From NCBI GenBank assembly GCA_023657425.1, contig JAGTJW010000001.1, positions 806,001 through 870,000 on the forward strand: a stretch of 64,000 nt of DNA. The letters run 5' to 3'. Positions 2 to 43,759 of the stretch are shown here, piece after piece. The notes beneath the pieces are model-generated. The model worked only from the letters and a program-made list of their open reading frames with translations. It was not told the DNA's origin and did not search any database. A program made the position numbers and the translations under genes. The stretch is from Ideonella sp. WA131b. Lineage in GTDB: Bacteria; Pseudomonadota; Gammaproteobacteria; Burkholderiales; Burkholderiaceae_C. Numbering within the stretch: the first letter of the stretch is position 1; each line of letters starts with the position of its first letter.

Positions 2-2857
2 GGCGGCCTGCACATCCGCTGGCCCGACGCGCCGCTGGAGCAGGAGGCGCGGCTGATGGACTACAAGTGGTACGCCGCGCTCGCCTATGTGCGCGCCAAC
101 CGGCTCAACCACGACGTCATCCGCACGGACCGCGACCGCTTCGGCATCATCGCCAGCGGCAAGGCCTACAACGACACGCGCCAGGCGCTGGCCGACCTGG
201 GCCTTGACGACTCCACTTGCCGCGCCCTCGGCATACGCCTGCACAAGGTGAACGTGGTGTGGCCGCTGGAGGCCACCATCACGCGCGACTTCGCCACGGG
301 CCTGCAGGAGATCCTGGTGGTGGAGGAAAAGCGCCAGGTCATCGAGTACCAGCTCAAGGAAGAGCTCTACAACTGGCGCCCCGACGTGCGCCCCAACGTG
401 CTGGGTAAGTTCGACGAACCCGAGGGGGACGCCACTGGCGGCGAATGGAGCATGCCCAACCCGAGCGAGAACGGGCTGCTGCGCGCCAAGGCCGATCTCT
501 CGCCCGCGATCATCGCCAAGGCCCTGGCCAGGCGACTCAAGAAGCTCGGCGTGCCGGAAGACATCGAGCGCCGCATGGCACAGCGCCTGACGGTGCTCGA
601 CGCACGCGCGCGCGAGCTCGCCGTGCTCAAGACCGACACCGGCGACCGCGCTCCCTGGTTCTGCAGCGGCTGCCCTCACAACACCAGCACGCGCGTGCCC
701 GAGGGCAGCCGCGCCGTGGCCGGCATCGGCTGCCACTACATGGCCGTGTGGATGGACCGCAGCACCAGCACCTTCACGCAGATGGGTGGCGAGGGTGTGC
801 CCTGGGTCGGCCAGGCGCCGTTCACGACCGAGAACCACGTGTTTGCCAACCTCGGCGACGGCACCTACTTCCACAGCGGCCACCTGGCCATCCGCCAGAG
901 CATCGCGGCCGGCGTGAACATCACCTACAAGCTGCTCTACAACGACGCGGTGGCCATGACCGGCGGTCAGCAGGTGGGCGAGCGGCCCGAGGGCCACAGC
1001 GTGCTGCAGATCCAGAAGAGCCTGGTCAGCGAGGGCGTGAAGAAGCTCGTGATCGTCACCGACGAACCGGCCAAGTACCAGGGCGCGGCGCTGGAGGCCG
1101 GCGTCACCGTGCACCACCGCGACGAGCTCGACCGCATCCAGCGCGAGCTGCGCGAGGTCCCCGGCACGACGGTGCTGATCTACGACCAGACTTGCGCCAC
1201 CGAGAAGCGCCGCCGCAGGAAGCGCGGCAAGATGGTCGACCCGGCCAAGCGCGTCGTCATCAACGAGCTGGTCTGCGAGGGCTGCGGTGATTGCTCGGTG
1301 CAAAGCAATTGCCTGAGCGTGGAGCCGCTGGACACCGAGTTCGGTCGCAAGAGACGCATCAACCAGAACTCCTGCAACAAGGACTTCTCCTGCGTCAAGG
1401 GCTTCTGCCCGAGCTTCGTCACCGTCGAGGGCGGGCAGCTGAAGAAGCCCAGGAAAGAGAAGAAGGGCACGCTCGACGGCCTGCCGGCACTGCCCGAGCC
1501 GGCGCTGCCGCTGTCCGTGGGTGGCAGCGAGCGCGCATGGGGCATCGTGGTGGGCGGCGTCGGCGGCACCGGCGTCATCACCATCGGCCAGATCCTGGGC
1601 ATGGCTGCACACCTCGAGGGCCGGGGTGTGGTCACGCAGGACGCCGGTGGCCTGGCGCAGAAGGGCGGCGCCACCTGGAGCCACATCCAGATCGCCAACC
1701 GCTCCGACGCCATCCACACCACCAAGGTCGACACCGCACAGGCCGACCTCGTGATCGCCTGCGACAGCATCGTCGGCGCCAGCAAGTACACCCTCACGGT
1801 GATGCAGCACGGCCGCACCTACGTGGCGCTCAACACCCACGGCACGCCGACAGCCGGCTTCGTGAAGAACCCGGACTGGCAGTTTCCCGGCAGCAACTGC
1901 GAGACCGTGCTGCGCGCCACCGTCGGCGAGGGCCTGGTGGGCGCCTTCGATGCCGAGCAGGTGGCCGAGCAGCTGCTCGGCGACAGCATCTACACCAACC
2001 CGCTGATGATGGGCTACGCCTGGCAGCAGGGGCGCATCCCGCTGAGCCTGGCCGCCATCCTGCGCGCCATCGAGCTCAACGGCGTGCAGGTCGAGAACAA
2101 CAAGGCCGCGTTCGAATGGGGTCGGCGCTGCGCCCACGACCTGGCCTCGGTCACCGCCCTCTTCAAGGCGCAGCAGGTGATCCAGTTCGCCAGGAAGCCG
2201 TCGCTGGACGAGCTGCTCCAAACTCGCGTGGCCTTCCTCACCGGCTACCAGGACGCTGCCTACGCGCAGCGCTACGCCGGCTTCGTGGAGAAGGTGCGCG
2301 CGGCCGAAGCGCCGCTGGGCGGGGGCACGCCGCTGGCCGAGGCCGTGGCGCGCTACCTCTTCAAGTTGATGGCCTACAAGGACGAGTACGAAGTCGCGCG
2401 GCTGCACACCGACGCGGCCTTCACGGCCAAGATCGACGCGATGTTCGAGGGCGACTACAAGCTCGTGCACCACCTGGCGCCGCCGCTGCTGGCAAAAACC
2501 AACGAGAAGGGCGAGCTGGTGAAGCGCCCTTACGGCCCCTGGATGCGCACGGCCTTCGGCCTCCTGGCCAGGCTCAAGAGCCTGCGCGGCACGGCGCTTG
2601 ACGTCTTCGGCCGCACCGAGGAGCGTCGCACGGAGCGCGCGCTCATCGCCCGCTACGAGTCCACCGTCACCGAGCTGCTGAAGACGCTCGCCGCAACCAA
2701 CCGCACGCAGGCGGTGGAGATCGCGCGGCTGCCGGAGGACATCCGCGGCTTCGGCCACGTGAAGCTGCGCCACCTCAAGGCCGTGGAGCCGCGCTGGGAC
2801 GCGCTGATGCAGCGCTGGCGCGCAGGACCCGTGGGCGACGGGCGCCGCGCCTTTTGA
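2..2857 (+). CDS. Indolepyruvate ferredoxin oxidoreductase, fused alpha/beta type (5' truncated by window edge)
   Basis: The reading frame is open from base 2, so the gene starts before the window; about 951 residues are visible and the family is usually about 1150-1200 long, so the N-terminal part is missing. The enzyme oxidatively decarboxylates aryl pyruvates from amino-acid breakdown to aryl-acetyl-CoA, passing electrons to ferredoxin. Visible parts: a TPP-binding segment with CSGCPHNTST, then a Cys-rich 4Fe-4S stretch (CEGCGDC ... CNKDFSCVKGFCPSF) near residues 420-475, then the gamma-type domain starting with GGVGGTGVITIGQ, and a C-terminal DUF6537-like region. The downstream NUDIX gene overlaps its stop codon. 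Identity is firm; cytoplasmic location is from the family. Confidence 0.93.
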   Translation, partial: GGLHIRWPDAPLEQEARLMDYKWYAALAYVRANRLNHDVIRTDRDRFGIIASGKAYNDTRQALADLGLDDSTCRALGIRLHKVNVVWPLEATITRDFATGLQEILVVEEKRQVIEYQLKEELYNWRPDVRPNVLGKFDEPEGDATGGEWSMPNPSENGLLRAKADLSPAIIAKALARRLKKLGVPEDIERRMAQRLTVLDARARELAVLKTDTGDRAPWFCSGCPHNTSTRVPEGSRAVAGIGCHYMAVWMDRSTSTFTQMGGEGVPWVGQAPFTTENHVFANLGDGTYFHSGHLAIRQSIAAGVNITYKLLYNDAVAMTGGQQVGERPEGHSVLQIQKSLVSEGVKKLVIVTDEPAKYQGAALEAGVTVHHRDELDRIQRELREVPGTTVLIYDQTCATEKRRRRKRGKMVDPAKRVVINELVCEGCGDCSVQSNCLSVEPLDTEFGRKRRINQNSCNKDFSCVKGFCPSFVTVEGGQLKKPRKEKKGTLDGLPALPEPALPLSVGGSERAWGIVVGGVGGTGVITIGQILGMAAHLEGRGVVTQDAGGLAQKGGATWSHIQIANRSDAIHTTKVDTAQADLVIACDSIVGASKYTLTVMQHGRTYVALNTHGTPTAGFVKNPDWQFPGSNCETVLRATVGEGLVGAFDAEQVAEQLLGDSIYTNPLMMGYAWQQGRIPLSLAAILRAIELNGVQVENNKAAFEWGRRCAHDLASVTALFKAQQVIQFARKPSLDELLQTRVAFLTGYQDAAYAQRYAGFVEKVRAAEAPLGGGTPLAEAVARYLFKLMAYKDEYEVARLHTDAAFTAKIDAMFEGDYKLVHHLAPPLLAKTNEKGELVKRPYGPWMRTAFGLLARLKSLRGTALDVFGRTEERRTERALIARYESTVTELLKTLAATNRTQAVEIARLPEDIRGFGHVKLRHLKAVEPRWDALMQRWRAGPVGDGRRAF

Positions 2858-3711
2858 GCGCCAGGCCCGGGGCCATTCCGGCGCTGGCAGCGGCCCGCCG
2901 CGCCGTGCGACCGCGCCGCGCGGTCTGGCTGGACGGCGAGCGCGTGGGCTGCGTGGCCGAGCCGCACCTGCCCTTGCTGGCGGCCGAGGTCGGGGCGTTC
3001 GAGGTCGGCGCCCAGCGCGTAGACATCGTGCTGCCGCCAACAGAACGCCAGGCCCAGTTGGCCCGGCTGCACCACGGCTGGCACGCCCAGGGCGCCATCG
3101 TCGGCTGGCGCGACGAGCCCTACGCCCTGGCGCCGCTCGACGGCCCGGCCGCCGGCACGCCGCGCGTGGCCATCGAGCGCGCGGCGTCGCGCTTCTGGGG
3201 CAGCCTCACCTTCGGCGCGCATGCCAACGGCTTTGTGCGCGGGCCCGATGGGCGGGCGGCCGCGCTGTGGATCGCGCAGCGTTCGTCCAGCAAGCCCACC
3301 GACCCGGGCCTGTTCGACAACCTGGTGGGTGGCGGCGTGCCGCTGGGCCAGCGGCCGGCCGAGACGCTGGTGCGCGAGGCCTGGGAGGAAGCCGGCCTCG
3401 CGGCCGACCTGGCCACGCGCGCCACGCCGGTGCGCGTGCTGCGCATCGAGCGCGACATCCCGGAAGGCCTGCAGCGCGAGCGGCTTTACGCCTTCGACCT
3501 CGAATTGCCTGCGGGCCTGACACCACAGAACCAGGACGGCGAGGTGCAGGGCTTCCGCCTGCTGGCCCTGCAAGACGCCCTGGCACTGGCCCTGGGCGAG
3601 GCCATGACGGTGGACGCGGCGCTCGTGACGCTGGACTTCGCGTTCCGTCACGGCGTGCTGCCGGCCGCGCTGGCCGAGTCCTGGCGATCTTTCCTCGCCA
3701 GTCCATGCTGA
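2854..3711 (+). CDS. NUDIX hydrolase with N-terminal DUF4743-like domain
   Basis: 285 residues from a TTG start that overlaps the stop of the preceding gene (TTGA), which implies translational coupling. The NUDIX box is seen at about residues 150-173 (GGGVPLGQRPAETL then VREAWEEAGL), holding the REXXEE metal-binding core. The N-terminal 120 residues look like the DUF4743 domain found with Tnr3-type thiamine-related pyrophosphohydrolases. The substrate is therefore probably a nucleoside diphosphate derivative or thiamine diphosphate-like compound, but nothing in the sequence fixes it. The preceding enzyme uses thiamine diphosphate, so a role in clearing damaged cofactor is possible; that is speculation from context. 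Confidence 0.85.
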   Translation: MSARPGAIPALAAARRAVRPRRAVWLDGERVGCVAEPHLPLLAAEVGAFEVGAQRVDIVLPPTERQAQLARLHHGWHAQGAIVGWRDEPYALAPLDGPAAGTPRVAIERAASRFWGSLTFGAHANGFVRGPDGRAAALWIAQRSSSKPTDPGLFDNLVGGGVPLGQRPAETLVREAWEEAGLAADLATRATPVRVLRIERDIPEGLQRERLYAFDLELPAGLTPQNQDGEVQGFRLLALQDALALALGEAMTVDAALVTLDFAFRHGVLPAALAESWRSFLASPC

Positions 3712-3754
3712 TTCCGCCTTGCCGGCAGCTCTGCAAGTGCTGTCGGCGCGACGC

Positions 3755-30433: not shown

Positions 30434-30904
30434 ATGCCACTCAGTTGGAACGAAATCCGCGATCGCGCCACGGCTTTTGCGCACGAATGGCAGCACACCA
30501 AGGACGAAGACGCCGACGCCAAGAGCTTCTTGGATGCGTTCTTTGGGGTGTTCGGCGTTCGCCGCCGCAAGGTGGCGAGCTTCGAAAAGCGCGTCAAGAA
30601 GTTGGACGGCCGTGGCGGCTATGTCGATCTCCTCTGGAAGGGCACCTTGCTCATCGAGAAGAAGAGCCGCGGCAAAGACCTGGCGAGGGCCTAACAGCAG
30701 GCACTGGACTACTTCCCGGGCATCAGTGACGACGACCTGCCGCGCTGGGTGCTGGTGTCGGACTTCTGGCGATTCGAGCTGCACGACCTCGAAGACGACA
30801 AGGCCACCGCTTCACGCTGAGTGAGCTGCCTCAAGGGGTCATCCTGTTCCACTTCATCGCGGGCTGCACGCCGCAGCGTGTCGTTGGGCGCAGCAATTGC
30901 TGAG
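30434..30904 (+). pseudogene. MmeI-like restriction/methyltransferase, N-terminal fragment
   Basis: Residues 1-86 (MPLSWNEIRDRATAFAHEWQ ... FEKRVKKLDGRGGYVDLLWKGTL) match the N-terminal domain of MmeI-like type IIG enzymes. GYVDLLWKGTLLIEKKSRGK holds the nuclease D-x(n)-ExK pattern. An in-frame TAA at 30692 interrupts it; the frame then resumes (ALDYFPGISDDDLPRWVLVS, RFELHDLEDDK) and a frameshift near 30800 moves it to FTLSELPQGVILFHFIAG before a stop at about 30902. The matching C-terminus lies 8 kb away, fused to a recombinase (37491-39383). The ribosome site GGGAGATAGGCG is intact. Confidence 0.82.
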
Positions 30905-31526
30905 ACAGGATGGCAACTCGTTTACCTGTAAAGCTCCACGCTACGCGCAGCAGGAGGTTCAAGAAGGCTGCAGCCGTTGTCGAGACTGGCGCGCAATCGC
31001 GCAGAAGTTCCTGCACAGGCCACCCTGGGCACCGATTCCCGGCCTCTGCCTTCGATGGCCCGGCCCGCAGACGCGAACTCAGCGCCACGTCCGCTCTCTG
31101 CGGGCACCACCTGCTGGTCAAGACCCTTACCAGCCGATCGACGCGATCCGAAGCTGTCGGATGACCGACCCGGCCCCTTCACGTTCCGCATCTATGGAGC
31201 AGCCGTTCGTGGCCACCGGCAGTCGGCCAGGACCAGACGCTCGTCGACCCCAACCTCAACGTCAGCTCAGGCGATCAAGGCTGTCAGTGAAGCGGAGGCC
31301 GGCGCTGCGCGCCGCAGAATCGAGGGCCTCAGCGCCCGCGATGGCGTCGGGAAGAGGTCTGCGTGACAGGTTGGTTGAGCGCCATTTGCGACCGTGGGAC
31401 GCCTGCAGCGCGCGCCCAGTCCTCGGCTTCGTGCGGCGCGCAGTCCCAGTCTTTGCCGAACAGCGCCGGGCCCTGCTCGCACATCCGCAGGGCGCAACAC
31501 GCCGAAGCGGGGTGGCCCGTATTCGC
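30905..31526. other. Unassigned degenerate DNA between MmeI fragment and MITE
   Basis: About 620 bp with no gene I can recognise. A 50-codon minus-strand stretch (EQGPALFGKDWDCAPHEAED, AAGVPRSQMALNQPVTQTSS, roughly 31330-31490) has protein-like composition but no known family. The rest looks like scrambled remnants, consistent with its place between two broken genes. Confidence 0.5.
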
Positions 31527-31800
31527 TAGGAGCGTGGGCGGCAGAAATCCAGCCCCGCGCCGGGGCGGCCAAAGCCACTGGCGTAGACGCGTCGCGCAGC
31601 GCGGGCTTGACGCCCGCGCCAGCGGCGCAACACCCGCCAGCGGCTTTGGCCGCCCCGGCCCTTCGGGTTGGGCCGATTTCGGGGCCCATGCGGCGTTGCC
31701 ACGCTGGCCCGGGCGCACAGCCCGGGCTGCGCGCGGCGCCTGGCCTGGGCCCCGAAGTCGGCCCAACGCGGGGCTGGATTTCTGCCGCCCACGCCCCTAG
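31527..31800. mobile_element. MITE with IS5-type CTAG target duplication
   Basis: The 266-bp body (31531-31796) starts GAGCGTGGGCGGCAGAAATC and ends with the inverse complement GGGCGTGGGCGGCAGAAATC; the terminal repeats extend about 30 bp with one mismatch. Both sides carry CTAG, which fits the YTAR target duplication of the IS5 group. It encodes no transposase. Inside are further inverted repeats (31561-31584 with 31636-31659, one mismatch; and about 31668-31691 with 31748-31768), so most of the element can fold on itself. It interrupts the Bug receptor gene after codon SAER. Confidence 0.82.
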
Positions 31801-32505
31801 GCGTTCCGCCGACAACACTGCCAGCGCCTTGAGGCGCCCGCTCTTGACCAAGGGGACGGCCGCAGCCGACGGCAGGACCGCGTACGCCAGCCGGCCGCCG
31901 ACGAGATCGTTGATGGGGCTGTCCTTGTATGGAACGTGTAGGGACTTGAAGCCCAGTGCACGAGCCAGCCGCTCGGCCTGCAGATGCGGCGTGCTGCCCT
32001 CGCCCGGCGAGGGGTAGGCCACGGGCTCGGCGGCGGCCTTCGCCTTGCCTGCGAGGTCCGAAAGCGACGCCACGTCGCTGCTGGAGGGCACCAGCACGAG
32101 CCAGTGGTCCAGCAGCAGCCGCCCTACCGGCGTGAGGTCCTTGAAGAGCGCCAGCGGTGTCCGACCCTGGCTGACGAAGGCGTGGGTGATGGAATCACCC
32201 GAGCAACCGCTGACGTTGAGCGTGTGTCCATCGGCCGCCGCGGCGGCCACGGCTGCGGTGGCGATCGTGCCGCCCGCGCCAGGGCGGTTCTCAACCACCA
32301 CCGGCTGCCCCAGCGAGGAGGCCATAGCTTCGCTCAGCAACCGCGTCACGACGTCTGGAGAAGAGCCCGGTGGCGCGCCAATGAGCACGCGCACGGGCTG
32401 AGTCGGGAATGAGGCCGCTGCAATCGACGTTGCCAACAGAGTAAGCGTGAGACCCCATCGAACTGACTGGGAGAGACGACGTCGGGCATGGGGAACGGAA
32501 CGCAT
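31798..32505 (-). pseudogene. Bug/TctC-type tripartite tricarboxylate receptor, truncated by MITE
   Basis: The reading frame from the ATG at 32505 has a signal peptide (QSVRWGLTLTLLATSIAAAS) and Bug-family motifs: FPTQPVRVLIGAPPGSSPD, VVENRPGAGGTIA, PHLQAERLARALG, VPYKDSPINDLVGG, and ends at KSGRLKALAVLSAER where the MITE begins. About 235 of the usual 320 residues remain; the C-terminal lobe is gone and is not found beyond the MITE. Such receptors bind carboxylates or aromatic acids in the periplasm. The gene is divergent from a lysR gene, a standard Bug-regulator arrangement. Confidence 0.85.
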
Positions 32506-32583
32506 GGTGTGAGTCGTGAATTCGGGTTGGCCAATGCCGCGGGCTGTGGCCATGAATGGCAATGCTTACTTCTGTTAACCTAA

Positions 32584-32896: not shown

Positions 32897-33658
32897 TCAG
32901 ATCTCGGCGTGTGACTGGCCGCGGTAGCTCTTGCCTTCGATCACGACGGTCTCGACGTGGTGCAGCAGCCTGTCCAGGAGTGCCGAGGCCAGGGTCGCGT
33001 CGTTGTTGAAGATCCCGGCCCATTGCTTGTACGGGCGATTCGTTGTCAACAGCGTGGTGCCGCGCTCGTAGCGGTGGCTGATGATCTGGAACAGGCAGTC
33101 GGCGCCGAACTTGTCGATGGGCAGGTAGCCCAGCTCGTCGATGCACAGCACCTCGGGCTTGACGTAGGCTGCCAGCGCCCGCTTGAGGCCGCCGGCGGCC
33201 TGCGCGGTGGCCAGCGTGTTGATGATGTCGATGGCGCCGGTGAACAGCACCGAGTGCCCGCGCTGGCACGCTGCATAGCCCAGGGCCGTCATCAAGTGGC
33301 TCTTGCCCAGGCCGACGCCGGAGATGAACACCACGTTGGCGTGCCGGGCCACGAAGTCCAGGTGGAACAGGTTCTGTATCTGCGGCCGGTTGATCTTGGT
33401 GGGCCAGTTCCAGTCGAACTTGTCGATGGTCTTGAGCACGGGGAAGCGGGCCTGGCGGATGCAGCGCTGCACGCGTCGGTCCTCGCGCTGGGCGGCCTCG
33501 CCGTTGAGCAGCTCGGCGAAGTAGGCCAAGTGCGACCACTGCTTGTCGGCGGCGGCCTTGGCCAGTGGCTGGTAGTTCTCGCGCATGAACGGCAGGTTCA
33601 GCGCGGTGAGCTTGGCCTGCGCGGACAGGGCATCGGGGTGGGCGTGGCGTGCTCGCAT
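32897..33658 (-). CDS. istB: IS21-family helper ATPase IstB
   Basis: 253 residues from the ATG at 33658 behind AAGGAGCGACAACC. AAA+ ATPase related to DnaC: Walker A GVGLGKSHL (about residue 106), Walker B VLCIDELGYLP, sensor region LLTTNRPYKQW. It regulates target choice and activates the IstA transposase. It starts 13 bp after the istA stop. The gene appears intact. Confidence 0.93.
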   Translation of the reverse strand: MRARHAHPDALSAQAKLTALNLPFMRENYQPLAKAAADKQWSHLAYFAELLNGEAAQREDRRVQRCIRQARFPVLKTIDKFDWNWPTKINRPQIQNLFHLDFVARHANVVFISGVGLGKSHLMTALGYAACQRGHSVLFTGAIDIINTLATAQAAGGLKRALAAYVKPEVLCIDELGYLPIDKFGADCLFQIISHRYERGTTLLTTNRPYKQWAGIFNNDATLASALLDRLLHHVETVVIEGKSYRGQSHAEI

Positions 33659-33671
33659 GGTTGTCGCTCCT

Positions 33672-35132
33672 TCACTCACGGTCGTAGATGGACAGGTCGG
33701 GCGCGGGGATCTCGATGTCGAGCAGGTCGGCACTGCGGGTGAGCTGCAGGGCGGCGGGCTCGGCCCCGATGCGCCGGCGCGCGGCCAGGATGTGGGCGAT
33801 GTACTCGGCGCTGAAGGCCTGCAGCTCCAGACCGTCGTCGATGGCGCGCTCGACGGCCTCGCGGCCGTGCATCTCGGCCAGGGCGAGGATCTGGCGCAGG
33901 TGCACCCGGGCGTTCACACGCCGGGCCTCCAGGCCCTCGCGGTAGGCTTGGGCGCGCGGCGACAGGGCCAGGAACTGCACCAGCAGGCGTTGCTCGCGGG
34001 CGCTCTTGCGCTGCTGGGCGAGTTGCTGGGCGTGCTCGGCAAGCTCGAAGTCCTTGTTGCGCTGCATGCTTCGCGCGTGGAGCGCGACGAGTTGGTCGTG
34101 GGCATAGATGCACAAGCGGTCGGCCCAGGCCTTCAGGGTCAGGCGTTGACCCACATGGCGCGAGGGCACGGAGTAGGTGTTGGAGTCCAGCGCGACGCGG
34201 AACTGCTTGTTGACGCTTGCCGTGCGCACGCGTGCGAGGTCGAACCCGACGGGGTTGAGCCGCTTGAGGCGGGCGCGCTCTTCCTCGAACATGTCCACGG
34301 GTCGGCGCTGGGTGGCGCCGTGCACGCGCACGTCGGCCACCGTGTCCACCCACAGCTGCGCGGCGGGCTGCACGGCGCTGAAGTCGATGAACTCCTGGCC
34401 GGCCAGGAAGTTCTTCTTCACGTAACCCACGCCGTTCTCCACGCGTCCCTTCTCCCAACCCGAAGCCACGTTGCAGGGGGTGATCTGGAAGCCCCAATGG
34501 CGCGAGAAGTCGAGGTACTTGGGGTTGAACACCGGCGCCTCACCGACCAGGCGCTTGAGCACGGCGGACTTCAGGTTGTCGACCATCAGCCGCGCGGGCA
34601 CTGAACCGAAGGCGGCGAAGGCGTTCTCGTGGCAGGCCAGGAAGAACTCCATCTCCTGCGACACGGTGAACTCCAGGTACATGCGCCGGCTGTAGCACAG
34701 CACCATCACGAAGAAGCTCAGGCGCCGGCGCGTGTTGCCCACGGCGACGGTGCCGAACTCACCCCAGTCGAGCTGCGCGCACTCGCCCGGCTCGAAGTCC
34801 AGCTTGAGGAAGGCCGGCCGCTGTCGCGGGCGGATGCGGTGCACGTAGTCCTTGACGATGGTGATGCCGCCGCCGTAGCCGGCCTCGAGCAGCCGCTGGT
34901 AGATCTGCTGGGCGCTGTACGGGTGGGCGTCGAGCCAGCGCACGATCTGGCCCTTGAAGGCGTCGAGCTTGCTGGCGCGCAGCACGGCCTTGCGCGCTCG
35001 GAACTGTTCGGCCTGCGCCCACCGGGCGACGGTGCGTACATCCAGGCCCAGCGCTCGCGCGGTCTGCGCCACCGTGAGTTGCTGGCGCACCAGGTGGTCA
35101 CGGATGCGGCAGTAGGTCTCGTAGTCAACCAC
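33672..35132 (-). CDS. istA: IS21-family transposase IstA
   Basis: 486 residues from a GTG at 35132. An N-terminal HTH (QQLTVAQTARALGLDVRTVARWA) is followed by a DDE integrase core: ECAQLDWGEFG (first Asp, about residue 130), LMVDNLKSAV (second Asp), and the Glu in GWEKGRVENGVGYVK. It cuts and joins element ends with IstB. Its start overlaps the end of the upstream passenger gene by eight bases, implying one transcript for all four genes. Confidence 0.94.
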   Translation of the reverse strand: MVDYETYCRIRDHLVRQQLTVAQTARALGLDVRTVARWAQAEQFRARKAVLRASKLDAFKGQIVRWLDAHPYSAQQIYQRLLEAGYGGGITIVKDYVHRIRPRQRPAFLKLDFEPGECAQLDWGEFGTVAVGNTRRRLSFFVMVLCYSRRMYLEFTVSQEMEFFLACHENAFAAFGSVPARLMVDNLKSAVLKRLVGEAPVFNPKYLDFSRHWGFQITPCNVASGWEKGRVENGVGYVKKNFLAGQEFIDFSAVQPAAQLWVDTVADVRVHGATQRRPVDMFEEERARLKRLNPVGFDLARVRTASVNKQFRVALDSNTYSVPSRHVGQRLTLKAWADRLCIYAHDQLVALHARSMQRNKDFELAEHAQQLAQQRKSAREQRLLVQFLALSPRAQAYREGLEARRVNARVHLRQILALAEMHGREAVERAIDDGLELQAFSAEYIAHILAARRRIGAEPAALQLTRSADLLDIEIPAPDLSIYDRE

Positions 35133-36229: not shown

Positions 36230-37071
36230 GGCAGCCCTTGCGACCGAACCCCTACGCCGCGGCCTACGTTGACCGTGCGCGCGTGCTGCTGTCCGAGCTG
36301 CGCGAACTCGACGCGAGCCTGCACGACCAGAGCAGCGCGCCCCAAGGCACCATCTCGTTAGCGGCCGACAATATGGTGCGAGAGTACCTGATGCCCGACC
36401 TGTTGGCGGCGTTCCACGTGCGCTTTCCCGACATCGAGGTGCAGGTACTGGAGGCTGGCTCGGTGCGAGACCTTGCACGCCTCGGCACGGACCTGCTGAT
36501 GCAGTCGGGCTGGCCGCCGCACCAGGATGCGGTGCTGCGTACGTTGACAGAGACTCGCTGGCTGATCGTCGCCACTCCGGCTTACTGGTCTCGCCAAGGT
36601 CAGCCGAAGCTGCCATCGGATCTGGCCCGTCATGGCTGCGCGCTTTACCGCACCCCTTCTGGCGAGGTGCTCAGGCGCTGGCTGTTCGAGCGCGACGGCC
36701 AGAAGCAGGCGGTGGACGTGGAAGGTTGGCTCGTCAGCGACAGCCGCAGAGTGCTCGATGGACCGCTTCTGGCTGGACAGGTGGTGGCGCGGGTCAACGA
36801 TCTGTCGATACGTCGCGAACTCACTGAAGGCGGCTTGCAACCGGTGCTGTTGGACTGGACCGGCCTGCATGCGCCGCCCATCAGCCTGGTCGCCAAACGT
36901 TCGCTGACGCGCCAGCCCCGCGTCCGCGCCTGGATCGACTTCGCGGCGGAGTACACCGCAGAGCTGGCCCGCGAGCGGCTTCCCGGAGGTCTGCCGACCG
37001 TACGGCCTTCGGAGCGGCCCGAATGGTGGAAGCGACGCGTGTCGGCCGGTCCCCGAAGTACCCGCTCGTAG
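36230..37071 (+). pseudogene. lysR regulator, effector-domain part (downstream of IS21 element)
   Basis: The frame continues from the interrupted 5' part: GQPLRPNPYAAAYVDRARVL, SELRELDASLHDQSSAPQGT, then the substrate-binding fold (FHVRFPDIEVQVLEAGSVRD, ADNMVREYLMPDLLAAF) through RELARERLPGG and a stop at 37071. No stop or frameshift is seen, so only the IS insertion breaks the gene. The intact protein would be 334 residues and would have controlled the divergent Bug receptor gene. Confidence 0.87.
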
Positions 37072-37164: not shown

Positions 37165-37494
37165 CGGCTCGGGTTCGGTCGCGGCGTCGAACGACCGCTG
37201 ACCAGCGACACAGCCGTTTTCGTGCGTCGCCTGGCGCCGCATGACGAACCCATCGGCGTGGACGCCATCCGACGCATCGTCCGCGATGCCTTCCGGCGCG
37301 TAGGCATCCAGGATGGCCGCGGCCATGCGCTGCGCCACACCGTCGCCTGTCGGATCGTCAACCAGGGCGGCTCGATCAAGGAGGTGGCCGACGTGCTGCG
37401 GCACCGGTCGTTGAACACCTCGATGATCTACGCCAAGGTTGACCATGGCGCGCTGTCTCGCGTCGCGCTGCCGTGGCCCGGGAGCGCGACATGA
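37165..37494 (+). pseudogene. Tyrosine recombinase, first of a RIT-type trio, C-terminal remnant
   Basis: The frame is open from 37165 but has no start and lacks the N-terminal two thirds. It keeps the catalytic end: HALRHTVACRIVNQGGSIKE (H-x-x-R) and VLRHRSLNTSMIYAKVD (the H/W box and nucleophile Tyr). Its stop overlaps the next recombinase start by ATGA at 37491-37494, the usual arrangement of recombinase-in-trio elements. Sequence upstream is the end of lysR. Confidence 0.78.
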
Positions 37495-39383
37495 GCGCCC
37501 GTGTCAGCCTGCAGGCCAGGGTCGAGCAGTACCTGGCCGAGCGACGCCTGCTGGGCTTCAAGCTCGACAACATGGCGCACCGACTGGCGAGCTTCGCGCG
37601 CTATGTGGCCAACGCCGGCCATGCCGGACCGCTCACCGTCGATCTGATGGCGGACTGGGCGCGCCAGGCCAAGGCCGGCCACGGCGACCGCGCCACCTTG
37701 GCGCGTCGGCTGAAGATGCTGCGGCCGTTCACGGCTTGGTTGCGCCAGTTCGACCCTGCCACCGAGGTGCCCGACGAAGCCGTCTTCGGTCGATTGCCAG
37801 GGCGGATGACGCCGCACGTCTACCGTGAACCCGAGATCGTCGAGTGGCTGGCCGCGGCCAGGCAGCTCGGGCCCCAGGGTGGACTGCGCCCGGCGGTGAT
37901 GGAGACGCTGCTCGGGTTGGTCGCCTGCACAGGGCTGCGCATCTCCGAGGCGCTGGGCCTGCTCGATGCCGATGTCGACCTGCGCGTCGGCTTGCTGACG
38001 GTCCGGCAGAGCAAGTTCGGCAAGACACGCTTGGTGCCGCTGCATCCGAGTGCCGTCCACGCATTGGAGCGCTACCGAGATCAACGCGCGCGCCATGTGA
38101 GCACAACGCCTGAGCGGCCGTTCTTCGTTGCCAGCCGCGGGCAGTTGCTGGGGCAGCCCGTCGGGGATCGCCAGGTCCACCGCGTCTTCGGTGATCTGCG
38201 CCGCCAACTGGGATGGGTCGATCGAGGCAGCCATGGCATGCCGTTCCTCGACCACTTGGAACAAGACCGCGGCAACACGGTGCGCACCCGCAATGCCCGG
38301 CTGGCGGCGATGCGCGCGTTCCTGAAGTTCGCCGGGCACCGCGACGTCAACGCGCTGCACATCGTCGAACAGGCCCTGGGCGTGCCGATGAAGCGCTACG
38401 AGCGGCCGATGCTCGGCTTCCTGTCGCGCGAGGAGATGCTGGCGATCATCGGCAAGCCGGGTTCAAGCTGGACCAGCCAGCGCGACCATCTGCTGCTGCA
38501 CATGCTCTACAACACCGGTGCCAGGGTGTCGGAGATCATCGGCGTGCGGCTGGCCGATGTCGTGCTGGAAGGTGCGGCCTGCGTGCACCTGCATGGCAAG
38601 GGGCGCAAGCAACGGACGATGCCGCTGTGGCGCTCGACGGTGAAGGCAGTTCGATCATGGTTGAGGTTCAACCCGGACCTGCTGCCAGCCTCGACGCTGC
38701 TGCCCAACCGGGATGGGCACACGATGACAAGGAACAACGTCGCGCAGCGCCTGGCGCTGGCAGTGGTGGCGGCGACTCCGAAGGTGCCCAGCCTGCGTGA
38801 CCGGCACATCTGCCCGCACACCATCCGCCACACGACGGCCATGCATCTGCTGCAGTCGGGCGAGCCGATCGATGGCATTGCCCTGTGGCTTGGTCACGAG
38901 AGCCCGACGACGACGCATCAGTACACGGAGGCCAACCTGGCTCCCGACTCAAGCCCCTTGAGCCTCTTCGACTTCGGCATCCTGTGCTCGACGATGCACA
39001 ACGCCTGGGTGCGTTGCACCTGTGGTCGCTTGGAGAGCCGCTACCGCTACAGCGCCGGCTTCGTCTACAACAACTACCCCTGGCCCCTGCTGCGGAGCGA
39101 CAAGCACGACCGGGCTTTGGCCCAGACCGCACAAGCCGTGCTCGACGCGCGCTTGGCGCAGGCCGGCCAGACCTTGGCCGCCTTGTACGACCCAGACACC
39201 ATGCCACCCGCGCTGGTGAAGGCCCACCGCGAGCTGGACCGCGCCGTCGATGCCGTCTACCTGGCCGAGTTGCCGCCTGGCATGAAGACCAAACCCAAGC
39301 TCGCGGGCGACGCCGAGCGCGTGGCGTTCCTGTTCAGCCTGTACCAGCACCTCACCGAGCTGGCCGCGCCGGCCGAGCAGTGA
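37491..39383 (+). CDS. In-frame chimera: recombinase B / recombinase C / MmeI-like methyltransferase C-terminus
   Basis: 630 residues, ATG at 37491, no internal stop. Residues 1-245 are the N-terminal and early catalytic part of a tyrosine recombinase (EQYLAERRLLGFKLDNMAHR; CTGLRISEALGLLDADVD with the first Arg) that breaks off at WVDRGSHG before its H-x-x-R and Tyr. From about residue 250 (FLDHLEQDRGNTVRTRNARL) a second recombinase begins mid-domain and keeps its full catalytic set: TGARVSEI, HTIRHTTAMHLL, LGHESPTTTHQY. From about residue 490 (LSLFDFGILCSTMHNAWVR) the C-terminus of an MmeI-like enzyme follows (GRLESRYRYSAGFVYNNYPW; LYDPDTMPPALVKAHRELDR). So two deletions fused three genes. 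Probably inactive, though the middle recombinase catalytic domain is intact. Confidence 0.85.
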   Translation: MSARVSLQARVEQYLAERRLLGFKLDNMAHRLASFARYVANAGHAGPLTVDLMADWARQAKAGHGDRATLARRLKMLRPFTAWLRQFDPATEVPDEAVFGRLPGRMTPHVYREPEIVEWLAAARQLGPQGGLRPAVMETLLGLVACTGLRISEALGLLDADVDLRVGLLTVRQSKFGKTRLVPLHPSAVHALERYRDQRARHVSTTPERPFFVASRGQLLGQPVGDRQVHRVFGDLRRQLGWVDRGSHGMPFLDHLEQDRGNTVRTRNARLAAMRAFLKFAGHRDVNALHIVEQALGVPMKRYERPMLGFLSREEMLAIIGKPGSSWTSQRDHLLLHMLYNTGARVSEIIGVRLADVVLEGAACVHLHGKGRKQRTMPLWRSTVKAVRSWLRFNPDLLPASTLLPNRDGHTMTRNNVAQRLALAVVAATPKVPSLRDRHICPHTIRHTTAMHLLQSGEPIDGIALWLGHESPTTTHQYTEANLAPDSSPLSLFDFGILCSTMHNAWVRCTCGRLESRYRYSAGFVYNNYPWPLLRSDKHDRALAQTAQAVLDARLAQAGQTLAALYDPDTMPPALVKAHRELDRAVDAVYLAELPPGMKTKPKLAGDAERVAFLFSLYQHLTELAAPAEQ

Positions 39384-39465: not shown

Positions 39466-40236
39466 ATGGAAGCGCAGCGCATCCGCATCGCCTTGCACGA
39501 CGAGTCTGCCGGCTACGCCGTGTCGCCGGCACGCGTGCCGCTGGCCGTGCTGCGCGCCTTCGCCAAAGACGTCGACGAACTTCTGCGCGGTGATGCCGGT
39601 GATCTGCCGGCCCGCGAGCTGGAAGTCGCCGTGGTCGATGGCTCGCTGGCGATCGAGACCCAGCCCACCGCCAACCCCGGGCTGGTGCAGGACCTGCGCC
39701 TGCTGGCGAGCTCGTCCTTGATCAACGGCATGAACGGCAAGCGCAGCGCGGTGGTGGAACGCTGGCAGCGTGCCGCCCGGTCGACGCGGCAGGTGCGCTA
39801 TGAGGTCACTGCAGCGTGGCTGCCCCGCTCGGTGGTGATCAGCGCCGACAGCGACTTCCACACCGACGACGCCGACCAATGGGTGCGTGTCGAACGCTAC
39901 GTGCAGGGCGAGGTCTTTGAACTCGGCGGCCTGAACAACGTGAACGCCCACCTGCGCCTGGCCGATGGTTCGACCATGCTGGTGAGCGCGGCCCGCGATG
40001 CTCTGAGCAAAGACCCGAAGAACCGCCTGTTCAAGCAGGCGCTGGTGCGCATCGTCGCGGACTACAACGTGCAGACCCGCGAGCATCGCAACGCGCAGCT
40101 GCTGGGCTTCGAGCCCCAGGACAACCGGGTCGACAAGCAGGCGGTCGCGCGCATGCTGGCCCGGGGCCGGCAGGCCTGGGCCGATGTGCCCAGCGCCGCC
40201 GACTGGGTGGAAGACCTCCGGGGCAACGAAGCTTGA
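39466..40236 (+). CDS. Hypothetical protein, 256 aa, upstream of a PIN gene
   Basis: ATG at 39466, 82 bp after the methyltransferase end. It begins EAQRIRIALHDESAGYAVSP and has no signal, membrane helix or known motif; predicted mixed alpha/beta with RVERYVQGEVFELGGLNNVN and HLRLADGSTMLVSAARDALS in the second half. Its stop overlaps (TTGA) the start of a PIN-domain gene that is cut after about 17 codons. The coupling suggests a two-gene unit, perhaps defence-related given the restriction-enzyme neighbour, but no function can be named. Confidence 0.75.
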   Translation: MEAQRIRIALHDESAGYAVSPARVPLAVLRAFAKDVDELLRGDAGDLPARELEVAVVDGSLAIETQPTANPGLVQDLRLLASSSLINGMNGKRSAVVERWQRAARSTRQVRYEVTAAWLPRSVVISADSDFHTDDADQWVRVERYVQGEVFELGGLNNVNAHLRLADGSTMLVSAARDALSKDPKNRLFKQALVRIVADYNVQTREHRNAQLLGFEPQDNRVDKQAVARMLARGRQAWADVPSAADWVEDLRGNEA

Positions 40237-40285
40237 GCGCGTTCCTGGTCGACACGAGTTTCCTCATCACCCTGGCGGACGACTC
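40233..40285 (+). pseudogene. PIN-domain protein, 5' stub
   Basis: MSAFLVDTSFLITLADDS is the first strand and first catalytic Asp of a PIN ribonuclease (FLVDTSFLITLADD). The gene is then replaced by GGGGTCA-type repeats and a transposase fragment. Only about 17 of some 140 codons remain. Confidence 0.7.
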
Positions 40286-40286
40286 G

Positions 40287-40347
40287 AATCTGTGGGGTCA
40301 GAATCTGTGGGGTCACAAATCTGTGGGGTCAAAGATCTGTGGGGTCA
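40287..40347 (+). repeat. Four copies of (A/G)ATCTGTGGGGTCA at 15-16 bp spacing
   Basis: Units start at 40287, 40302, 40318 and 40334; each is 14 bp with at most one change. They lead into a GGGGTCAAGTCTCCCATCTC end identical to the flank of the REP-associated transposase at 42955. This looks like stepwise duplication at an element boundary, not a CRISPR. Confidence 0.8.
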
Positions 40348-40490
40348 AGTCTCCCATCTCTCTTCCTTCCTCAACCCTCTCTGAGCCTTGGCGATCAGGC
40401 GGCTCACATGCGACAACGACAGGCCGCTGTGTCGCGCCCACTGTGTCATGGTCACGCCAGCGATCGTGTGGGCCTGCCGCAGTCGCTGAA
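40343..40490 (-). pseudogene. REP-associated (Y1) transposase, C-terminal fragment
   Basis: About 148 bp are nearly identical to 42956-43102, the 3' end of the transposase gene there, including the downstream GGGGTCAAGTCTCCC flank. It codes the C-terminal HTH (QAHTIAGVTMTQ ... SGLSLSHVSRLIAKA). Beyond 40490 similarity stops abruptly. Confidence 0.82.
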
Positions 40491-42953: not shown

Positions 42954-42973
42954 TTAGGGGTCAAGTCTCCCAT
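42954..42973 (+). repeat. REP-like end motif at the 3' side of the transposase gene
   Basis: GGGGTCAAGTCTCCCATCTC, shared exactly with 40343-40362 and present in inverted form (ATGGGAGACCTGACCC) three times beyond the 5' end of the transposase gene. Confidence 0.75.
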
Positions 42974-43759
42974 CTCTCTTCCTTCCCCACCCCACTCTCT
43001 GCCTTGGCGATCAGGCGGCTCACGTGCGACAACGACAGGCCGCTGAGTCGCGCCAACTGTGTCATGGTCACGCCAGCGATCGTGTGGGCCTGCCGCAGTG
43101 CCTCGGCACGATCTCCATCGCACTTGGCGAGGTGCTCGTGCCAATCGAAAACAACCAGCGGGCGCCGCTGCGTGCGCGGGATCGGGCGTGCAGCCAGGCG
43201 CTGCGGTTCGGCCTGTGCCTGCATGCGATGAACGAAGTTTTCGTCACCCAGATAGATCTGGCCGCGCAAGGCCGTCTGCCAGAACTGGGCGTCTTCGGCC
43301 TTAGCGCCATCTACCAAGGCGCGGTAACGTCTGATCGCCAGCTGTCGATCGCGCGCCGTGGTGACTGGTCGGCCGATGAGGTAGCCATGCAGGCCGTCGG
43401 TGTCCAGCCAACTTGGCGTGGGCGTCAAGCCCAGGTGGGCGCGGCAGCTCGACCACTCCCAGTTCGCGGGCTCTGCCACCAAGTTGGCCGCCACCGGGTT
43501 GCGCTCGATGTACCGACACAAGGAGAGCAGGTACGCGTCGCGATTGACCAAGATGGCCTTGAAGCGCCCTTGGAACAGGTGCCCTACAAGGCCGTGGCGT
43601 CGATTGAACGCCTGTGTATACACCCCATTGAGGTGCCGCATGAAGCGCGAGAGATTCGACTGCCTCGTATGCACCACGAGGTGATAGTGGTTGCCCATCT
43701 GGCACCACGCCAACACCTCGGCGTCGAATCGTTCGGCCGCCTGCGCCAGCACCTCTAAC
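42961..43759 (-). pseudogene. REP-associated tyrosine (Y1) transposase, main part (5' end split off by IS)
   Basis: Codes VLAQAAERFDAEVLAWCQMG then NHYHLVVHTRQSN with the HUH-type metal motif, the LFQGRFKAILV stretch, and a C-terminal HTH. The first 35 codons are missing here but are found at 45730-45836 on the far side of the IS element. Rejoining the two parts without one TCTAAC copy gives 906 bases, a 301-residue uninterrupted protein (...DRSRQLE-VLAQAAERF...). RAYT proteins move or copy REP-type repeats. Confidence 0.9.

Follow-up and report, generated by a model that had tools for sequence, protein, structure and literature searches.

Recombinase-in-trio (RIT) elements were first described in Cupriavidus metallidurans CH34 (PMC2864759, PMC3414803) and are given a length of ~3,500 bp (PMC3414803). 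RITs that inactivate radC and an IS66 tnpA are described (PMC2864759), as are RITs with missing or truncated genes on pHG1 and on plasmid 2 of Aromatoleum aromaticum EbN1 (PMC3414803). In the account of PMC3414803, the mobility of these elements was without experimental demonstration as of 2012. Since truncated and gene-inserted RITs are thus recorded in these sources, a decayed RIT is a locus of a known kind.

The locus described here lies in a 64,000-nucleotide stretch of the genome of Ideonella sp. WA131b, the whole of which is referred to as the window. It holds the remains of a RIT trio, the last part of which runs in frame into the 3′ end of an MmeI-like restriction-methyltransferase gene (Table 1). 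Nothing among the papers listed in literature searches resembles a RIT-MmeI or a recombinase-methyltransferase fusion.

Table 1 Features of the locus in window coordinates, except for the reference trio.
Feature	Position	Strand	Evidence or remark
MmeI-like 5′ fragment, ~residues 1–121	30434..30796	+	tblastn of the G045 and G031 MmeI proteins, 58% each; MmeI_N
tctC receptor gene, cut at its end	31267–32562
IS21 pair, istB	32897–33733
IS21 pair, istA	33672–35132
lysR without its DNA-binding head	36238–37071
ritA 3′ third, ~last 101 of 325 residues	37188..37494	+	L012 alignment from 806; C-terminal half of Phage_integrase
ritB codons 1–251 of 324	37491..38243	+	aligned to L012 1109–1861
Joint 1	38243..38244		433-bp deletion relative to L012 across the ritB/ritC border, in frame
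ritC residues ~74–305 of 338	38244..38941	+	aligned to L012 2295–2992
Joint 2, ritC end to late TRD of the MmeI-like gene	38941..38942		RIT matches stop at 38941, MmeI matches begin shortly after
MmeI-like 3′ tail	38942..39383	+	last 43 TRD profile positions, C-terminal domain and stop; 58% to G045 MmeI
256-aa gene without Pfam or PADLOC family	39466..40236	+	3′ of the mmeI tail
PIN-like gene, first 16 codons, broken off at ~40281	40233..40280	+	tblastn of the L052 PIN-like protein
Reference trio of L012 (own coordinates)	ritA 135–1112; ritB 1109–2083; ritC 2076–3092

The RIT remnant and the MmeI-like gene pieces

The RIT part was compared with L012 (G006:C47), a 3,328-base contig of the same genus that carries three overlapping tyrosine recombinase genes, with overlaps of 4 bp between A and B and of 8 bp between B and C (ritC start at 2076). 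Two blocks of the window, 37188–38243 and 38244–38941, align without gaps and with 93% DNA identity to L012 806–1861 and 2295–2992, respectively. The residue count of ritA in Table 1 runs from the start codon listed for L012. Four other copies, L022 (G025), L023 (G008), L037 (G110) and L036 (G112), place the borders within 5 bases of the same positions, with the exception that the L036 match begins 12 bases later. Each of the five comparison copies is free of stops, with complete ritB and ritC and a ritA match that is close to full length. The stop of ritA in the window overlaps the ritB ATG as ATGA at 37491–37494, the B–C border is deleted, and ritB is cut ahead of the segment of the catalytic domain that contains HxxR...Y. 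The number of bases shared at joint 1 is zero with four of the copies and two with L023. The best matches of the three parts are to the respective genes (A, B or C) of a Paraburkholderia sprentiae plasmid trio or to the corresponding EbN1 genes, and the 60 plasmid records listed, of 682, contain full-length RitB matches.

Three distinct adjacent recombinase genes are thus represented, each in part, and the short A–B overlap is preserved. The window copy does not span ~3.5 kb between terminal inverted repeats. The element in L037 (~217–3716) is about 3.5 kb long and has inverted ends; exact end motifs are absent from the window. Among the best 40 of 274 candidates of the L012 search, the genome itself gave the two window blocks, a pair of weak matches (52 and 60 bases) and no element ends. 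The window therefore holds a RIT remnant, not an element.

The tail of the restriction gene and its putative start lie 8 kb apart on the same strand, with ~650 codons missing. A search of the genome with the G045 protein matched its residues 1–120 to 30434–30793 with 58% identity. The translation of the 5′ fragment has an in-frame stop after codon 86, and a further weak mmeI stretch follows in another frame at 30808–30924. The order and strand of the two pieces, together with their similar distance to the same relative, suggest that both derive from one gene. Two more MmeI-like genes are present elsewhere on the contig and are 28–36% identical to the G045 protein. Between the two pieces lie the cut tctC, the IS21 pair, open reading frames without family and the headless lysR. 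Since the cut tctC and the headless lysR flank the IS21 pair, the region from ~30.8 to 37.2 kb looks rearranged. The sequence-only reading had pictured a RIT inserted in or beside the methyltransferase gene. With the 5′ end of mmeI 8 kb upstream and these genes in between, a simple insertion in mmeI is not borne out.

On the 3′ side of the tail, the 256-aa gene has homologs in four congeners (L049, L050, L051 and L052), with 48–53% identity. The homolog is preceded by a type IIG-like restriction gene in L050 and L052 and by an MmeI-like fragment in L049; in L051, tblastn found no restriction-gene match upstream of it. It is followed in all four congeners by an overlapping PIN-like frame; the frame of L052 was compared with Pfam, and its PIN match is below cut-off. 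The restriction gene, the 256-aa gene and the PIN-like frame possibly form a three-gene module. The PIN-like stub of the window gave a weak match (E = 0.044), yet at the expected place and with the expected overlap. Short TGTGGGGTC-type repeats and then a copy of the 3′ end of a RAYT gene follow the stub. This copy is part of a 143-bp direct repeat (94%) at 40341–40483 and 42957–43099, the first copy of which is preceded by the TGTGGGGTC-type repeats, and the second of which includes the 3′ end of a RAYT/IS200-like transposase gene at 42961–43752.

Composition of the fused reading frame

The fused frame extends over 630 codons, from the ritB ATG at 37491 to the stop at 39383, and contains no internal stop or frameshift; a GTG at 37473 is an alternative start. 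It encodes RitB residues 1–251, then RitC residues ~74–305 and finally the C-terminal ~147 residues of an MmeI-like (type IIL/IIG) enzyme, so that the joints fall at 251/252 and 483/484 in protein numbering. Pfam identifies two Phage_integrase stretches (6e-40), a weaker Phage_int_SAM_1 match (1e-5), MmeI_TRD (5e-15) over profile positions 164–206 of 207, and a nearly complete MmeI_C (2e-21, profile positions 2–80 of 83). By these E-values the homology of the parts is far beyond chance. NCBIfam yields Xer/integrase-type models only, all below their cut-offs. The MmeI-like protein of G045 (L020), 922 aa in length, carries the N-terminal, helicase-spacer, methyltransferase, TRD and C-terminal domains in one protein; the fused frame does not unite these five.

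Active tyrosine recombinases share the residue pattern R...K...HxxR...H/W...Y. This pattern appears in the RitC part only, which is truncated at its N-terminal side. The RitC residues are R345, K370/K373, H443–R446, H469 and Y478 in the numbering of the fused frame, which we take to have the catalytic roles familiar from the tyrosine recombinase family. The RitC part is short by ~73 residues at its start and by ~33 at its end, which falls five residues past the catalytic tyrosine.

What had been read from the letters alone is upheld in part by these comparisons. The uninterrupted frame of RitB, RitC and MmeI-like parts is confirmed by the frame itself, by Pfam and by the L012 alignment, and the preceding remnant does end in a recombinase box (the C-terminal half of Phage_integrase) with an ATGA overlap. 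Origin from a RIT trio agrees with the gap-free alignment to a full-length congeneric trio, and the MmeI type of the tail with its two Pfam domains and its identity to the G045 protein. The brackets that had been proposed for the joints, 38235–38245 and 38940–38960, each contain one, and the single recombinase catalytic domain that had been noticed, that of RitC, has its catalytic residues. The claim that the tail supplies a foreign DNA-recognition domain fails: the tail retains about a fifth of the TRD (43 of 207 profile positions) and is therefore not a whole DNA-recognition unit.

The region has a G+C content of 68%. A consensus scan found no sigma-70-like promoter, which is weak evidence for a pseudogene; the scan for promoters and terminators gave 0 and 1, respectively, compared with 0.2 and 1.2 in shuffled sequence. 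An Rfam search of 25000–50000 gave no matches.

Occurrence of the joints in other genomes

The fused protein was searched against 100 related genomes including its own, with up to the 12 best candidates per genome (21 for its own). Some recombinase or MmeI match was present in 98 of the 100, the genome itself included, and among the matches listed none in the 99 other relatives joined the parts: RitB matches end by residue 258, RitC-type matches start at residue 236 at the earliest and end by 493, and no MmeI match begins before 488. DNA across joint 2 was searched in 81 genomes of the genus, again including its own. Among the best seven candidates per genome, no match in the 80 others crosses the joint; the RIT matches extend no further than query position 62, which corresponds to 38941, and the matches to the two clear mmeI relatives begin at query positions 82 (G045) and 115 (G031). 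The protein across joint 2 (query residue 34) was searched in 399 genomes of the family, including its own, drawn from a larger group; 87 of the 399 had a match. None of the 398 others has a joining match among its eight or fewer best candidates. The RitC matches lie mostly in frames of ~350 aa and the MmeI matches mostly in frames of ~900–1080 aa; on the RitC side the matches reach query residue 49 at most, and on the MmeI side they never start before residue 17.

A 20-mer across joint 1 has four exact matches in genome_contigs, all in unrelated bacteria. Since tblastn with the fused protein finds nothing at these four loci at 1e-3, and their flanks differ, the matches are taken as chance. 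Patterns of 24 bases for joint 1 and 23 bases for joint 2 have no matches in viral_contigs. The collections searched may lack records of the genome itself or of very near ones, and same-species strains thus lie outside their scope.

The earlier reading had favoured a deletion scar over a stable fusion, which would show itself by recurrence of the joints. No such recurrence was seen among the genomes searched, and a stable recurrent fusion is rejected, as neither joint was seen in the relatives or in the genus and family genomes searched.

Origin of the fused frame and comparison with known systems

The fused gene is very probably a chimeric pseudogene, an accident of decay whose parts were joined by deletions that kept the frame. 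In this scheme, a RIT element (ritA-ritB-ritC) would have become located within or beside an MmeI-like restriction-methyltransferase gene. Three losses, by deletion or rearrangement, would have followed: that of the ritA start together with the left element end, that of 433 bp spanning the ritB/ritC border, and that of the ritC end together with the right element end and ~650 mmeI codons. Two joints would have kept the frame, so that the ritB start codon reads through to the mmeI stop. We infer both the order of these events and a product that does nothing. The two deletions proposed from the sequence-only reading stand as deletion joints, but the number of cuts is three, ritA also being without about its first two thirds (cut at 37188). 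The decayed locus is also wider (the stop in the 5′ part of mmeI, the cut tctC, the PIN-like stub and the headless lysR). Against the pseudogene reading can be set the 630 codons without stop or frameshift and the intact catalytic residues of RitC.

The open frame itself needs no special cause, because a substantial share of random double deletions stays open. When deletions with random ends were simulated in pairs on L012 and the G045 mmeI gene (n = 20,000), 11.3%, or near 1 in 9, kept one frame from the ritB ATG through the native mmeI stop.

The substitution pattern of the window copy suggests relaxed selection. Private changes were counted among six copies (the window, L012, L022, L023, L036 and L037), L014 (G035) being left out because it is more divergent and gapped. 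The window has 17 nonsynonymous and 8 synonymous private changes, compared with a total of 73 and 160 in the five other copies (Fisher p = 0.0006), and without L036 the counts are 21:13 and 70:133 (p = 0.004); as the copies are related, the p-values are guides only. The ratio of 17:8 is near the neutral value, since the ratio of nonsynonymous to synonymous sites in ritB is ~556:197. By part, the window counts are 4:1 in A, 8:4 in B and 5:3 in C, so that the nonsynonymous excess spans the whole remnant, not the fused frame alone; private changes are undatable and some may therefore precede the deletions. The ritB of L023, a full-length copy, has 19 nonsynonymous and 15 synonymous private changes, a similar nonsynonymous share.

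Plasmid 2 of EbN1 offers another route to joint 1. There, a related ritB ends abruptly within its HDLRH (HxxR) codons, ~7 codons beyond the position of joint 1, and a second RIT, which has a terminal inverted repeat of 30 bp, starts at the break (L008 4435–7868). A RitC-like tail, residues 268–338 with 69% identity, resumes behind the second RIT (L061 9183–9395). RITs may insert in recombinase genes, and joint 1 could by this parallel be the scar of a second RIT that had entered ritB near the HxxR codons and then disappeared together with DNA on its flanks. This is improbable: no terminal repeat or other RIT sequence is present at 38243, none was found among the candidates scored in the genome, and the parallel is a single case. 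The joint would be a decay scar even so.

A functional chimeric recombinase, whose RitC catalytic domain would still bind or cut DNA with an arm from RitB at its N-terminus and a tail from MmeI at its C-terminus, is highly unlikely. The open frame, the R, K, HxxR, H and Y positions of RitC and the nearly complete MmeI C-terminal domain speak for it. However, both termini of RitC and most of the TRD are missing, as are most of ritA and both element ends; the substitutions have the relaxed pattern described above, and the joints were seen in none of the other genomes searched. There is very little chance that the chimera is expressed and its RitC catalytic domain active, with new contacts to partners or DNA made through the RitB arm or the MmeI C-terminal domain, and the fused product most likely does not work. 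Were the chimera functional, deletion would here have given rise to a new protein, a recombinase born from a deletion scar. An assembly or library chimera, to which the 0–2 shared bases at joint 1 might point, is just as remote, since the genome is in only 3 contigs and holds no second RIT copy and no intact mmeI copy that was found and could serve as parent DNA (the other MmeI-like genes being distant), and the neighbouring DNA is decayed as well.

At base resolution, the probable chimeric pseudogene illustrates that a decaying mobile element can be left by deletions with a long open frame, which automatic annotation might mistake for a real recombinase with a methyltransferase tail. Its overall importance is little, and the joining of such pieces is ordinary.

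Like RIT elements, the window copy has three tyrosine recombinase genes and an ATGA overlap, but it is without the 5′ part of ritA, both element ends and the ritB/ritC border, and is therefore not expected to be autonomous. The EbN1 locus and the window are alike in that RIT genes are cut, with a loss that begins late in ritB and extends into ritC. The truncated ritB of EbN1 borders on the second RIT, whereas in the window ritB is joined to ritC, and ritC to the restriction gene, in frame. The tail of the fused frame follows the order of MmeI-family enzymes, in which the end of the TRD is followed by the C-terminal domain and the stop; unlike these enzymes, the fused frame has only a small part of the TRD and no N-terminal, helicase-spacer or methyltransferase domain.
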